Below are positions 1,870 to 5,253 of a stretch of 20,296 nt of DNA, piece after piece. Source of the stretch: a virus; the IMG/VR virus record IMGVR_UViG_3300031957_003414, positions 1 through 20,296 of that record; one strand, 5' to 3'. The position numbers were made by a program, and so were the translations under genes. The notes below the pieces were generated by a model. That model saw only the letters and a program-made list of their open reading frames with translations, did not search any database and was not told where the DNA came from. Numbering within the stretch: the stretch's first letter is position 1; each line of letters begins with the position of its first letter.

Positions 1870-2360
1870 GCGGAAAGGCAAACTTTTTTCAAAAAAAGTG
1901 ATTCTGCCTGTATTGTCTCCAATCTTTCGAGATAGAAGTCATTGTCAAAATGTCCTTCCATTTTGCCTTCCTGAAGCCACTTCATTTGGCGTTGAATGTA
2001 ACTTGCGATTTCTTCTTCGGTCTCGAAAAGATATTCAGAGTGATCCATTCCTTCTCGGATTGCTTTTTCGTATTGTGGGAACAGATTGATTGCTGTTTGG
2101 TAAACGTGTCGATAGTGAATTACATCTTCGAGATGTGTTTCTGCGGAGAAGGAAACATAAACTCTCGGAGTGCCAAATTTCTCTTTTGTTTGAAGAACGC
2201 TGATGTTCGATCTGGTTACAATGTCTGTTGTGTAGGGTCTGTGCATTGGCCCTATCAAAGCATAGCCAATCCAGTTTGCGATTGTTCCTATGGTGTAAAA
2301 ATAATCTTTGTGTTCTTCGCTTTCGCTTCCCCACATGTTGTAATAAATTTGTTCAGTCAT
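1866..2360 (-). CDS. Hypothetical phage protein, 164 aa
   Basis: The ATG at 2360-2358 overlaps the TGA of the preceding gene as ATGA, with GGAGG upstream, so translation is probably coupled. The motif KEKFGTPRVYVSF near residues 59-71, followed by a helix, resembles the KEKFGxLRFY pattern seen in many small uncharacterised phage and bacterial proteins, but here Pro replaces the usual Gly/Leu. The C-terminal half is charged and probably helical (EEEIASYIQRQMKWLQEG). No membrane segment or catalytic motif is visible. It ends inside promoter P3. Function unknown. Confidence 0.75.
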   Translation of the reverse strand: MTEQIYYNMWGSESEEHKDYFYTIGTIANWIGYALIGPMHRPYTTDIVTRSNISVLQTKEKFGTPRVYVSFSAETHLEDVIHYRHVYQTAINLFPQYEKAIREGMDHSEYLFETEEEIASYIQRQMKWLQEGKMEGHFDNDFYLERLETIQAESLFLKKVCLSA

Positions 2361-2539
2361 TTACCCTCCAGTTCTTTCAGAACATTTTGAAGACGCAATA
2401 TCATGTTTGACGCTTCAAATATTTTTTCAATTATAAATTTTAATTCTGTCTCATTTAAATTATCATTGGCAACAGAATCGATTGCAATGGACTCAAACCT
2501 AATCAAGCGTGCCATTTCGTGCATTATTTCTTTTTTCAT
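2357..2539 (-). CDS. Small helical protein, 60 aa, unknown
   Basis: The ATG at 2539-2537 (MKKEIMHEMARLI) follows GGAG at good spacing, although it overlaps the end of the previous gene by 41 bp. It could form two helices, residues 2-20 and 29-58, the second (ETELKFIIEKIFEASNMILR) with a heptad-like pattern suggesting dimerisation. It is coupled to the next gene by an ATGA overlap. No family recognised. Confidence 0.65.
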   Translation of the reverse strand: MKKEIMHEMARLIRFESIAIDSVANDNLNETELKFIIEKIFEASNMILRLQNVLKELEGK

Positions 2540-2679: not shown

Positions 2680-3486
2680 TCATCCTCCCTGTATAAAGTG
2701 TGTGTAGTGTAGGGAATAGAAATGGTTTTCTTCAGAAGATCTCCAAATAGCATAAGAAGTGTCTCTTTCTTTTCTCTTGTTGTCTCGAACAATTGCTTGA
2801 CACTTTGGAATAACTTCGGGATCATTATCCAAATCCTCTTCCTCTATATTAATAATATAACATGTTTCTGTTATGTTGTCAAGTGAAAAAAGCAACTTTT
2901 CTTCTTCACCAAGTTGGCCAATGCCAATTGTCGAGATTCTAGAAATAATTTTTTTTTCGTGCAACTTTCCAAAGTCAGGCGGGGTGTGTTTACAATACAT
3001 TAGGTTTTGTATTGTCGAATAAATAAAATAATTTACCTTTGAAAAGTATTTCAAAGCTGTTCCTGCACCAGCGATCTCCATTATTTTTTTATTGTCTAAT
3101 ATAATAAGGTTTTCGTACATGCCAGAGCGGGCGTATTCTTGCAAGACCCCAAAGTGGACTTTGTGTCTTAGTTTTTCTTCTCGAGAACAAAACTCAAGAT
3201 CGGGAACGATATAATAAACACTTGTTCTAAAGCCCTTGAGCGCCTCAAGAACGCGTAGAGAAGCTCCGGCAATCTTACCAGACCCACAAAGAAACAAAGA
3301 GGCCTCATCGTGCGATTTGAGCCCCTTCTGTGTGAATTTAAAGTCAATCTCATCATATTCTTCGACACTTTCTTTTTTTGGTATGCCATTGTCTTCGTCG
3401 AGAACAATAATTTTATAATTTTTTGTATGAGGTTTGAATAACTCAACAATATTCTTTCCGGCTTCGCCGAGACCAACCATTAACAT
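2680..3486 (-). CDS. FtsZ/tubulin-like protein with degenerate GTPase motifs
   Basis: 268 aa. Segments align in order with FtsZ: an N-terminal glycine loop GLGEAGKN (5-12) against GVGGGGGN; a hydrophobic strand then CGSGKIAGAS (67-76) where FtsZ has the GGGTGTGA signature; a strand YYIVPD (91-96); a helix with EKLRHKVHFGVLQEYARSG; LIILDNKKI (127-135) against LIIIPNDKL; and FSKVNYFIYSTIQNL (148-162) like FtsZ helix H7. The T7 loop NxDFAD is reduced to PDFGK (170-174), and the signature loop has lost most glycines and threonines, so GTP hydrolysis is doubtful. The start overlaps the upstream stop, with GGAGG. An internal promoter, P4, lies in its 3' part. Phage tubulins such as PhuZ position replicating DNA; here a scaffold role or interference with host FtsZ is speculation. 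Confidence 0.6.
   Translation of the reverse strand: MLMVGLGEAGKNIVELFKPHTKNYKIIVLDEDNGIPKKESVEEYDEIDFKFTQKGLKSHDEASLFLCGSGKIAGASLRVLEALKGFRTSVYYIVPDLEFCSREEKLRHKVHFGVLQEYARSGMYENLIILDNKKIMEIAGAGTALKYFSKVNYFIYSTIQNLMYCKHTPPDFGKLHEKKIISRISTIGIGQLGEEEKLLFSLDNITETCYIINIEEEDLDNDPEVIPKCQAIVRDNKRKERDTSYAIWRSSEENHFYSLHYTHFIQGG
2854..2882 (-). promoter_or_regulatory. Sigma-70-type promoter P4 inside the FtsZ-like gene
   Basis: TTGACA (2882-2877), 17-bp spacer, TATATT (2859-2854), with an extended -10 TGT. It lies within codons for the LDNITETCYI segment of the FtsZ-like protein and would supply the three small genes downstream. Confidence 0.75.
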
Positions 3487-3689
3487 TTTTCCTCCAATAA
3501 TGACATATAACTCTGTGGTATGTTGTATTCTTTAAAATCTTTGAGAAGAAGTACGATGCAACAATTATACAATCGCGATTGTCCTCTTATCTTCTTTTTA
3601 ATAATTCCAATATCACCGTTTGAATAACCAAAAACATTTTCATATTCAAATGGTGATTTATTTAGAACCACTAGGTCTCCAACCTTCAT
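3480..3689 (-). CDS. Small SH3/KOW-like barrel protein, paralogue 3 of 3 (69 aa)
   Basis: 69 aa with the pattern VGDLVVL near the N terminus, then GYSNGDIGIIKKK at 21-33, then a strand CCIVLLL and a final IPQSYMSLL. The two upstream proteins share this order, so the three look like paralogues. The GDL/GDIG spacing resembles small SH3-like or KOW-type barrels that bind nucleic acid or protein, but I cannot name a family. The ATG at 3689 is supported by AGGAG, within a 32-bp overlap with the previous gene. Its stop overlaps the start of the FtsZ-like gene. Confidence 0.7.
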   Translation of the reverse strand: MKVGDLVVLNKSPFEYENVFGYSNGDIGIIKKKIRGQSRLYNCCIVLLLKDFKEYNIPQSYMSLLEEKC

Positions 3690-3894
3690 CTTCTTCTCCT
3701 AATCTTGATAAGTATTCTAGCGGAATTGTCTCCGTCTGTTCATTTCTAAATAGTTTTACTCTTGCGAGTGGGTTTCCAAATCCGATAGTAACTTTAAGCA
3801 CTAGACCAATATCGCCTGTCTGATAAGTTTGCCATTTCCACTTCAAATAAGGAAATGTAACTATCACGAGATCTCCGGCTTTAATTTGATCCAC
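3658..3894 (-). CDS. Small SH3/KOW-like barrel protein, paralogue 2 of 3 (78 aa)
   Basis: 78 aa starting at GTG 3894-3892, overlapping the end of the previous gene by 14 bp with a weak AAAGGTG site; no ATG fits better. It shares AGDLVIV (6-12), then YQTGDIGLVLKV (24-35), a strand ARVKLF and IPLEYLSRL (57-65) with its neighbours. The C terminus (GEEDEGWRPSGSK) is polar and overlaps the next gene. Likely co-translated with both neighbours. Function unknown; nucleic-acid or replisome contact is an inference from the fold-like pattern and the adjacent polymerase. Confidence 0.68.
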   Translation of the reverse strand: MDQIKAGDLVIVTFPYLKWKWQTYQTGDIGLVLKVTIGFGNPLARVKLFRNEQTETIPLEYLSRLGEEDEGWRPSGSK

Positions 3895-4072
3895 TGATCA
3901 CCTTTATCTCTTCAGCCCAGAACGGTGCATAATCTTTTCGAGATCCAAGCATTGTCCAATAAATTGTTGTTTCTTTTGTAACTCTGTCTATCTTGACAAT
4001 TATACCAATCTCTCCGTTCTTATAGCCAGTTGACCTACTATTGACAACCTCGATTAGATCTCCGACTACCAT
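3881..4072 (-). CDS. Small SH3/KOW-like barrel protein, paralogue 1 of 3 (63 aa)
   Basis: 63 aa. ATG 4072-4070 overlaps the polymerase stop (ATGGTAG), with AAGGAG five bases upstream, so it is translationally coupled to the polymerase. The pattern is VGDLIEV (3-9), GYKNGEIGIIVKI (16-28), a strand ETTIYWTML and FWAEEIKVI. It is the most compact of the three paralogues. The direct coupling suggests stoichiometric production with the polymerase; a role as a polymerase accessory factor is speculative. Confidence 0.7.
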   Translation of the reverse strand: MVVGDLIEVVNSRSTGYKNGEIGIIVKIDRVTKETTIYWTMLGSRKDYAPFWAEEIKVISGSN

Positions 4073-5253
4073 GTAAACTCCTTCATTCGACCAAGATTTT
4101 TACCAAGAGAGCAATTTACCTTGAATTGTCCTAATCTTGTGTCTCCGAACATTTCCACAAGGTCCGGAATCAATCTTCTATCGTCTTTGTGTAGATCGAT
4201 GACAATGCTGTCATGAACAACAAAAGCAACATGGGATCTCGATGCCCTAAGAAAGTTAGAAATTTTGCAAAACCTGTCAAGGGTGTTGTCTGACGAAGTT
4301 GATTGTAATAGGTAGTTGAGGGCTTTGCGAACGGGAGCAGCAATTGACCTTCCAAATGGTGTTTGTACATGCCCTTCTTTATAAAATTTTTCGAGAAGCA
4401 CTTCTCTGTCGTAATAATCTGATTGGATAGCTTGGGATTCTTGGTTATAGAGCCAAGCGAATATTTTTGTTTTGGCAGTGTCTCGATCAATTTCTTTATC
4501 GAAGACGTTTTTAATGTTCCACTCATGAATGTCCTCCTCTGGTTGCTCATGTCCTTGTAGTGCAAGCATTGTTCGAATCTCGGCGGCATTAAAGTCGAGT
4601 TCTAGGAATGCATCGTTATTTGGTCTTACGTGAACCTTAAGTTCTTTTTTTAGATTGAGAATCGGAAAAGAATTTCTTTTTGTTGTCAATCTGCCGGTTA
4701 CCGTACCGAAAATGTCATAGTCAACATATGGAGTTGTTTCTCCAAATGCATCATAAAGATGCTTTGCCTTCTGGTCTTCCGCTGAGATGCAATAAAGAGC
4801 GAAAGAGTTGAGATTTACAGGGTGTCTTCTAAGTTCCTTTACAGCGGCTTGAGCTCTTTTTAATAAATTATAATGATGTGGTTTCTCGACATTCTCAAAC
4901 ACCCACTTTGTGATTTCATTTTTGGTATCGAAGTAGTGTTGCAAGTGTTTTTGCGGCACAAGGTCGTAAAAACATACATCTTCGAGGTTTATTTGAGCGG
5001 TGCTAAAACCCTTGAAATGCGCCTTCAGCAGATTCTTTGCCGTTACCCAACGTTCCCTAAGGAATTCGGGGCAAACCTCGTCAATCGACCTTCCAGACAC
5101 CAGCAAATGCGCATAATCGATGTCTCTGCCGAACAGGTGGTCGGAATACGACCAAGTTTTTGTGATTCCCTCCGGAATTTTGTCTCGAATGAATGTGCCG
5201 TCAATATAAGTTCCGGCGCAGTCAAGCTTGTTGTCCATTAACTGGAATATCAT
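4066..5253 (-). CDS. Compact family A DNA polymerase (no exonuclease domain)
   Basis: Template-directed DNA synthesis. Within 395 aa the polymerase core is intact: GTVTGRL (183-189); motif A LELDFNAAEIR with catalytic D220; EDIHEW (240-245) before motif B, R257-x3-K261-x3-F265-x3-Y269, the exact O-helix spacing of Pol I; LQSTSSD (316-322) like Pol I MQGTAAD; and motif C VVHDSIV with D348. Phe at 265 matches Taq/Pol I more than T7, so dideoxy discrimination would be expected. The segment between motif B and TPFGR (298-302) is shorter than in Pol I, and only about 180 residues precede the palm, so both exonuclease domains are missing and the thumb is reduced. The ATG follows AGGAGGACAA. It lies nine bases after a virion gene, with promoter P5 inside that gene. 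T4 itself uses a family B enzyme. Confidence 0.9.
   Translation of the reverse strand: MIFQLMDNKLDCAGTYIDGTFIRDKIPEGITKTWSYSDHLFGRDIDYAHLLVSGRSIDEVCPEFLRERWVTAKNLLKAHFKGFSTAQINLEDVCFYDLVPQKHLQHYFDTKNEITKWVFENVEKPHHYNLLKRAQAAVKELRRHPVNLNSFALYCISAEDQKAKHLYDAFGETTPYVDYDIFGTVTGRLTTKRNSFPILNLKKELKVHVRPNNDAFLELDFNAAEIRTMLALQGHEQPEEDIHEWNIKNVFDKEIDRDTAKTKIFAWLYNQESQAIQSDYYDREVLLEKFYKEGHVQTPFGRSIAAPVRKALNYLLQSTSSDNTLDRFCKISNFLRASRSHVAFVVHDSIVIDLHKDDRRLIPDLVEMFGDTRLGQFKVNCSLGKNLGRMKEFTW

Follow-up and report, generated by a model that had tools for sequence, protein, structure and literature searches.

What does a protein resembling FtsZ or tubulin, with altered nucleotide-binding motifs, do among the replication genes of a phage? 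The question is raised by an open reading frame in the window, that is, the whole analysed stretch of 20,296 nucleotides of IMG/VR virus record IMGVR_UViG_3300031957_003414. The window is the tail-to-replication junction of a T4-like phage, and its tail-gene order resembles that of Flavobacterium phage immuto, which yielded no relative of the tubulin-fold gene. The initial annotation, made from the sequence alone, had seen in this frame a phage FtsZ/tubulin-like protein that might cap or poison host filaments or serve as a scaffold.

The frame is a genuine gene, maintained by purifying selection: dN/dS amounts to 0.068 in the comparison with a relative of 97% identity and to 0.159 with one of 81% (overall 0.07-0.16). 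A GGAG ribosome-binding sequence lies just 5' of its ATG, an arrangement repeated in most of the 28 related loci examined. The gene had also been credited with a strong internal promoter pointing to early use. A promoter-like site is indeed present (Table 1), but it is directed outward through the 3' end of the gene, so that it can serve downstream genes only and cannot drive the tubulin-fold gene itself. Farther along the same strand (1841-1869, minus) there is a perfect TTGACA-17-TATAAT promoter match with an extended TG; it lies upstream of an ORF at 1403-1804, whose product is a small protein conserved in relatives between the tubulin-fold gene and the gene for single-stranded DNA-binding protein (SSB).

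Table 1. Features of the window around the tubulin-fold gene
Feature	Position	Strand	Details
Small family-A DNA polymerase	4066..5253	minus	395 aa; PHROG 17 E 7.9e-19; Pfam DNA_pol_A; PDB Klenow match
SH3-like small ORF, first of three tandem	3881..4072	minus	Pfam SH3_13 E 7.7e-4, below curated cut-off; conserved cluster
SH3-like small ORF, second of three	3658..3894	minus	Same sequence cluster
SH3-like small ORF, third of three	3480..3689	minus	Overlaps start of tubulin-fold gene; same cluster family in relatives
Tubulin/FtsZ-fold gene	2680..3486	minus	268 aa; ATG start; coordinates include stop codon
T1-like loop GLGEAGKNI, residues 5-13	3448..3474	minus	Paired by hhalign with FtsZ GVGGGGGN
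T4/G-box equivalent GSGKIAGAS, residues 68-76	3259..3285	minus	Aligned by hhalign with FtsZ GGGTGTGAA
T6-like Asn132	3091..3093	minus	Equivalent to FtsZ N165/166; 72/73 sequences
H7-like core helix, residues 147-167	2986..3048	minus	DSSP of model; F148xxxN152 at FtsZ F182xxxN186 position
T7-loop equivalent PPDFGKL, residues 169-175	2962..2982	minus	Without FtsZ NxDxxD pattern
Sigma-70-like promoter match within tubulin-fold gene	2854..2882	minus	TTGACA-17-TATATT, 11/12, extended TG; consensus match only
Helical-looking ORF, downstream	2357..2539	minus	60 aa; clusters with downstream ORFs of 28 loci; near clade

Fold of the window protein

The AF2 model of the window protein (pLDDT 87.5, pTM 0.87, from a 33-sequence alignment) retrieved FtsZ as the top-ranked Foldseek match (E 3.7e-10). 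With a structural aligner, it matched CetZ (Z 22.6 over 249 residues, 3.2 Å), TubZ (Z 21.4 over 260 residues, 2.7 Å), FtsZ (Z 21.2) and tubulins (Z 19-20), the matches spanning essentially the whole chain (residues 1-268). A second AF2 model, that of a relative (L153) 37% identical to the window protein, has a pLDDT of 90.3 and gave CetZ at Z 23.3, TubZ at 22.2 and FtsZ at 20.9. Among the matches listed for the two models, all were tubulin-superfamily chains with Z 19-23, H7 and the C-terminal domain included. In a viral model library, the best match of both was an annotated FtsZ of an uncultured phage (E about 4e-10). Both models contain a Rossmann-like nucleotide domain, the core helix H7 and a C-terminal alpha/beta domain. 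The FtsZ/tubulin-like identity was to be given up if the GTPase core plus H7 were missing or an unrelated family matched with confidence; neither was the case, and the full-length matches uphold it.

Identity to FtsZ in the structural alignments is about 10-16%. Nonetheless, the relationship can also be traced by profile comparison. When the family was aligned by hhalign with a profile of nine FtsZ sequences, the score was 27.0 compared with 15.0 +/- 2.6 for 300 column shuffles, none of which scored as high. After trimming of gappy columns, it was 31.8 compared with 14.2 +/- 2.4 for another 300 (shuffle maximum 25.4). The FtsZ-like order and spacing of segments, on which the first reading relied, is therefore above chance. 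The widest, more diverse family alignment matched FtsZ with P = 2.3e-5 and a probability of 76%, and the PDB matches of the family profile include FtsZ around T6-H7 (E about 0.6). As judged from the predicted structures, the window protein has the tubulin/FtsZ superfamily fold, and the profile match, which is independent of structure prediction, backs this assignment. DEAD-box matches (best 1.8e-4) were taken for chance similarity, as no second domain or motif supported them.

Putative nucleotide pocket and apparently reduced architecture

All the segments that had drawn attention to the protein are present: GLGEAGKN (residues 5-12), CGSGKIAGAS (67-76), YYIVPD (91-96), LIILDNKKI (127-135) and a long helix (147-167). 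In an alignment of 73 sequences, which underlies all conservation counts given here, the glycine loop T1 of the superfamily is retained (G5 and G7 in 73/73, G10 in 71/73). The glycine/threonine signature is altered, as noticed earlier: neither the window protein nor the relatives examined have GGGTG[TS]G at T4, and in its place the near clade has GSGK[IV]AG and distant members GASKTSG, GAARSAA or GSSFSAN. G68 is present in all 73 sequences; the other G-box positions are variable among distant members. The degenerate G-box of the latter may mean that nucleotide is handled differently there, and binding may even be lost. At T6, hhalign pairs LDN132KK with FtsZ PN165DK, and in H7 N152 is found in 72/73, so the asparagine pair N132/N152 occupies the guanine-contact positions of the superfamily. 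In both FtsZ and tubulin, T6 and H7 supply residues that touch the guanine base; guanine binding by the phage family can therefore reasonably be supposed.

The T7 catalytic loop is altered too, in agreement with the initial annotation. FtsZ D212 is the catalytic acid of T7, and hhalign pairs window PDFGK with FtsZ NVDFAD. The D212 position holds T, K, S, R, N, Q, V or A in 72 of the 73 aligned sequences (it is non-acidic in at least 72/73), the N207 position is N in only 4/73, and the NxDxxD/E loop was not found in this alignment. An acid at position 180, present in 54/73, might be an alternative to the T7 acid. In beta-tubulin, a lysine occupies the equivalent T7 position next to the non-exchangeable site; the lysine of window PDFGK is suggestive in this respect, as a parallel only. 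There are also near-invariant residues specific to the family, namely Q116, R120, S121, G122, R183, T186, Y210 and Q266.

The DSSP string of the window model gives the order S1 to H7 plus S7 to S10. FtsZ H3, H8 and H9 appear to be absent, as read from DSSP and the alignments rather than from coordinates. Past the last strand (S10), the window chain has only five or six more residues, and no FtsZ-type partner-binding tail follows the core; most relatives have much the same end. Since the canonical bottom interface in FtsZ filaments involves H8 and T7, canonical polymerisation looks compromised in the modelled protein.

Linkage to the polymerase gene and distribution of the family

That the gene adjoins replication genes was borne out by the family-A DNA polymerase gene upstream (Table 1). 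A tubulin-fold gene lies downstream of the small family-A polymerase in 36/36 near and 34/34 distant loci, that is, in all 70 testable loci (those with at least about 1.4 kb of sequence downstream of the polymerase), although these include nearly identical contigs and do not represent 70 independent events. The linkage extends to family members with as little as 28% identity to the protein of the window. It is directly adjacent to the polymerase or a few small genes away, and often overlaps the polymerase stop. The usual order after it is an ORF of 80-90 aa, a gp32-like SSB and a UvsX recombinase; the window itself has no SSB gene before its end. In the near clade, one to three tandem SH3-like ORFs precede the tubulin-fold gene and a helical-looking ORF of 60-70 aa follows it. 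Several distant members have neither kind, so neither belongs to the core. The window has three tandem SH3-like paralogs between polymerase and tubulin-fold gene (3480-4072, minus), and across loci their number varies from none to three.

Successive IMG/VR scans gave 26, then 44, then 75 loci, the least similar of them 35% identical to the query used. Scanning with the polymerase next door exposed 34 loci with more divergent tubulin-fold members and polymerases 39-47% identical. Over the whole set of loci fetched, the family profile is matched by 104 distinct open frames in translation, some partial. There are about 100 distinct relatives (again, some partial) in IMG/VR contigs and one in a bacterial MAG. 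Six records (five of 136-192 kb, one of 53 kb) contain one family match each. The carriers are a large, uncultured group of T4-like phages. When the window protein and four divergent members were compared by tblastn with 50,697 named phage records, no significant match was obtained, and an HMM search of Immutovirus, LR756508 and Mel-JY01 found no family member. Canonical tubulin was sought in the records of seven relatives and in Immutovirus, and none was found. Direct searches with the window protein, including Pfam, PHROGs and PDB sequences, returned nothing convincing. PF00091 did not match it, and the best value among relatives was only 0.085. With TIGR00065, it scored 13.5 bits compared with a curated cut-off of 295.2, which places it outside the FtsZ family proper; 6/32 family members touch this model weakly. 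The divergence from FtsZ, TubZ and CetZ is too large for a meaningful tree. Our search of the open-access literature found no description of the family, which does not prove that none exists.

As for cellular homologs, a first GTDB scan gave none and a second gave a single locus, in a WOR-3 MAG, carrying the same phage cassette. Here (CP070664.1, L254:2505-7864) baseplate, polymerase, tubulin-fold, SSB and UvsX genes are flanked by bacterial-looking genes, and the cassette is apparently either a chimeric assembly or an integrated remnant.

One relative with a 184-kb contig (IMGVR_UViG_3300033183_000299) deserves separate mention. Its ribonucleotide-reductase-like and PolIII-alpha-like genes are each split in two (L159:441-3624 and L158:5413-10189). 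The halves have intein-N-like ends and intein-C-like starts (VYDIQVRKNHNFFANGLLVHN), with a free-standing endonuclease-like ORF between them, and are apparently split inteins. Our survey (L156-L165) kept 97 ORFs of 200 aa or more, and all of them lie on one strand. This phage also encodes a GroEL chaperonin and, in the PolIII-alpha-like protein, a second DNA polymerase, and the contig begins and ends with the same 11 bases.

Possible roles and relation to known systems

With a probability of roughly 55%, we consider the family a divergent, compact tubulin/FtsZ branch in the replication module of large T4-like phages, acting as a non-hydrolysing scaffold or accessory protein that holds guanine nucleotide. 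A role in the replication module is favoured by the long conservation with the polymerase gene and by the loss of the hydrolysis loop. The nucleotide would be held through T1 and the two conserved asparagines and, since the T7 acid is absent, would not be hydrolysed by the usual mechanism. With the interface elements H3, H8 and H9 reduced, the protein would form a non-cycling scaffold or a small oligomer rather than a dynamic cytomotive filament, and it would work with the co-encoded DNA polymerase and SSB at phage replication sites. We infer nucleotide binding, lack of hydrolysis, oligomeric state and partnership with the polymerase; gene linkage is not the same as physical interaction. It is tempting to go further and to see here an integral, non-cytomotive replication component of the tubulin superfamily, kept throughout a large lineage of uncultured phages as a guanine-nucleotide-bound subunit or scaffold for the family-A polymerase and SSB, but this stronger version is tentative, and we would sooner bet against it than on it.

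Among the alternatives, we place second to the scaffold or accessory, at a distinctly lower probability, a filament that is static or turns over slowly and gives phage DNA or replication foci their position, in a PhuZ- or TubZ-like role. Hydrolysis would then be carried out by other residues or be unneeded. The fold is structurally close to TubZ and CetZ and the gene is replication-linked, as such a role would have it, and PhuZ deprived of its catalytic acid still polymerises with GTP; however, its dynamics are then lost and DNA is misplaced in such mutants (PMC4244570), which is why we would not expect a dynamic spindle of the PhuZ type from the phage family. The apparent lack of H3, H8 and H9, the altered T7 and the absence of a C-terminal tail past S10 in the window protein also speak against a positioning filament. 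An inhibitor of host division, attached to one face of host FtsZ and capping or poisoning the filaments, is unlikely. Several phages do inhibit host FtsZ, and the same fold with a disabled T7 loop is what one would expect of a capping mimic. However, the structural identity of 10-16% is low, H8 is apparently lost, and the unbroken association with the polymerase gene, seen in 70/70 testable loci despite great divergence, is more in line with a core phage role. Of the two uses proposed in the initial annotation, the scaffold remains the leading reading, and the capping or poisoning of host FtsZ is not supported. Finally, a dinucleotide-binding Rossmann protein with a GxGxxG loop and no tubulin relative, for which weak sub-threshold Pfam matches (TrkA_N, Sacchrp_dh) through that loop could be cited, is highly improbable in view of the asparagine pair at FtsZ positions, the profile match to FtsZ and the whole-length, exclusively tubulin-superfamily matches (Z 19-23) among those listed for both models; a dehydrogenase-like reading was dropped on the same fold evidence.

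The family shares with FtsZ the full-length fold, the guanine-contact positions of T1, T6 and H7 and the order of elements. In contrast to FtsZ, it has no GGGTGTG, no T7 NxDxxD and, according to the model, no equivalents of H3, H8 and H9; the window chain stops just after S10, and the gene sits in a replication operon and not among division genes. The highest structural scores (Z 21-23) are with TubZ of plasmids and phages and CetZ of archaea, but the phage family is much shorter and has no T7 acid. The TubZ gene is accompanied by that of a DNA-binding partner, TubR, whereas the neighbours here are the polymerase, small SH3-like and helical ORFs and SSB. PhuZ of nucleus-forming jumbo phages is likewise a phage-encoded tubulin fold from a large phage. 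Yet its structural match in the viral library was weak (E 7e-4, for one model only), and its catalytic T7 Asp and the C-terminal tail used in polymerisation (PMC3678025) are both absent from the window protein; we do not claim PhuZ membership. The nearest precedent is FtsZl1 (Makarova and Koonin 2010), a divergent branch of the FtsZ superfamily in which the standard filament elements are unrecognisable and filament formation is uncertain (PMC2875224). However, FtsZl1 has no recognisable T6-H7 and occurs in vWA-type operons linked to membranes (PMC2875224), whereas T6-H7 of the phage family ranks with its best conserved parts, and the genes around it form a DNA-replication operon.

The phage tubulins of the cited papers, PhuZ and TubZ, are filament-forming GTPases. 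The present lineage, for which Pfam gave no match above its curated thresholds and PHROGs no convincing one, differs from them: the positions of the guanine pocket are retained, the hydrolysis loop is gone, and a DNA polymerase gene accompanies it from locus to locus. The position of the gene beside that for the phage DNA polymerase suggests that the tubulin/FtsZ fold has been recruited into viral DNA replication. In other words, the family is a candidate for a non-cytoskeletal use of the tubulin fold, and it is a natural test case for asking how much of this fold, and which elements, can be removed while filament dynamics persists.
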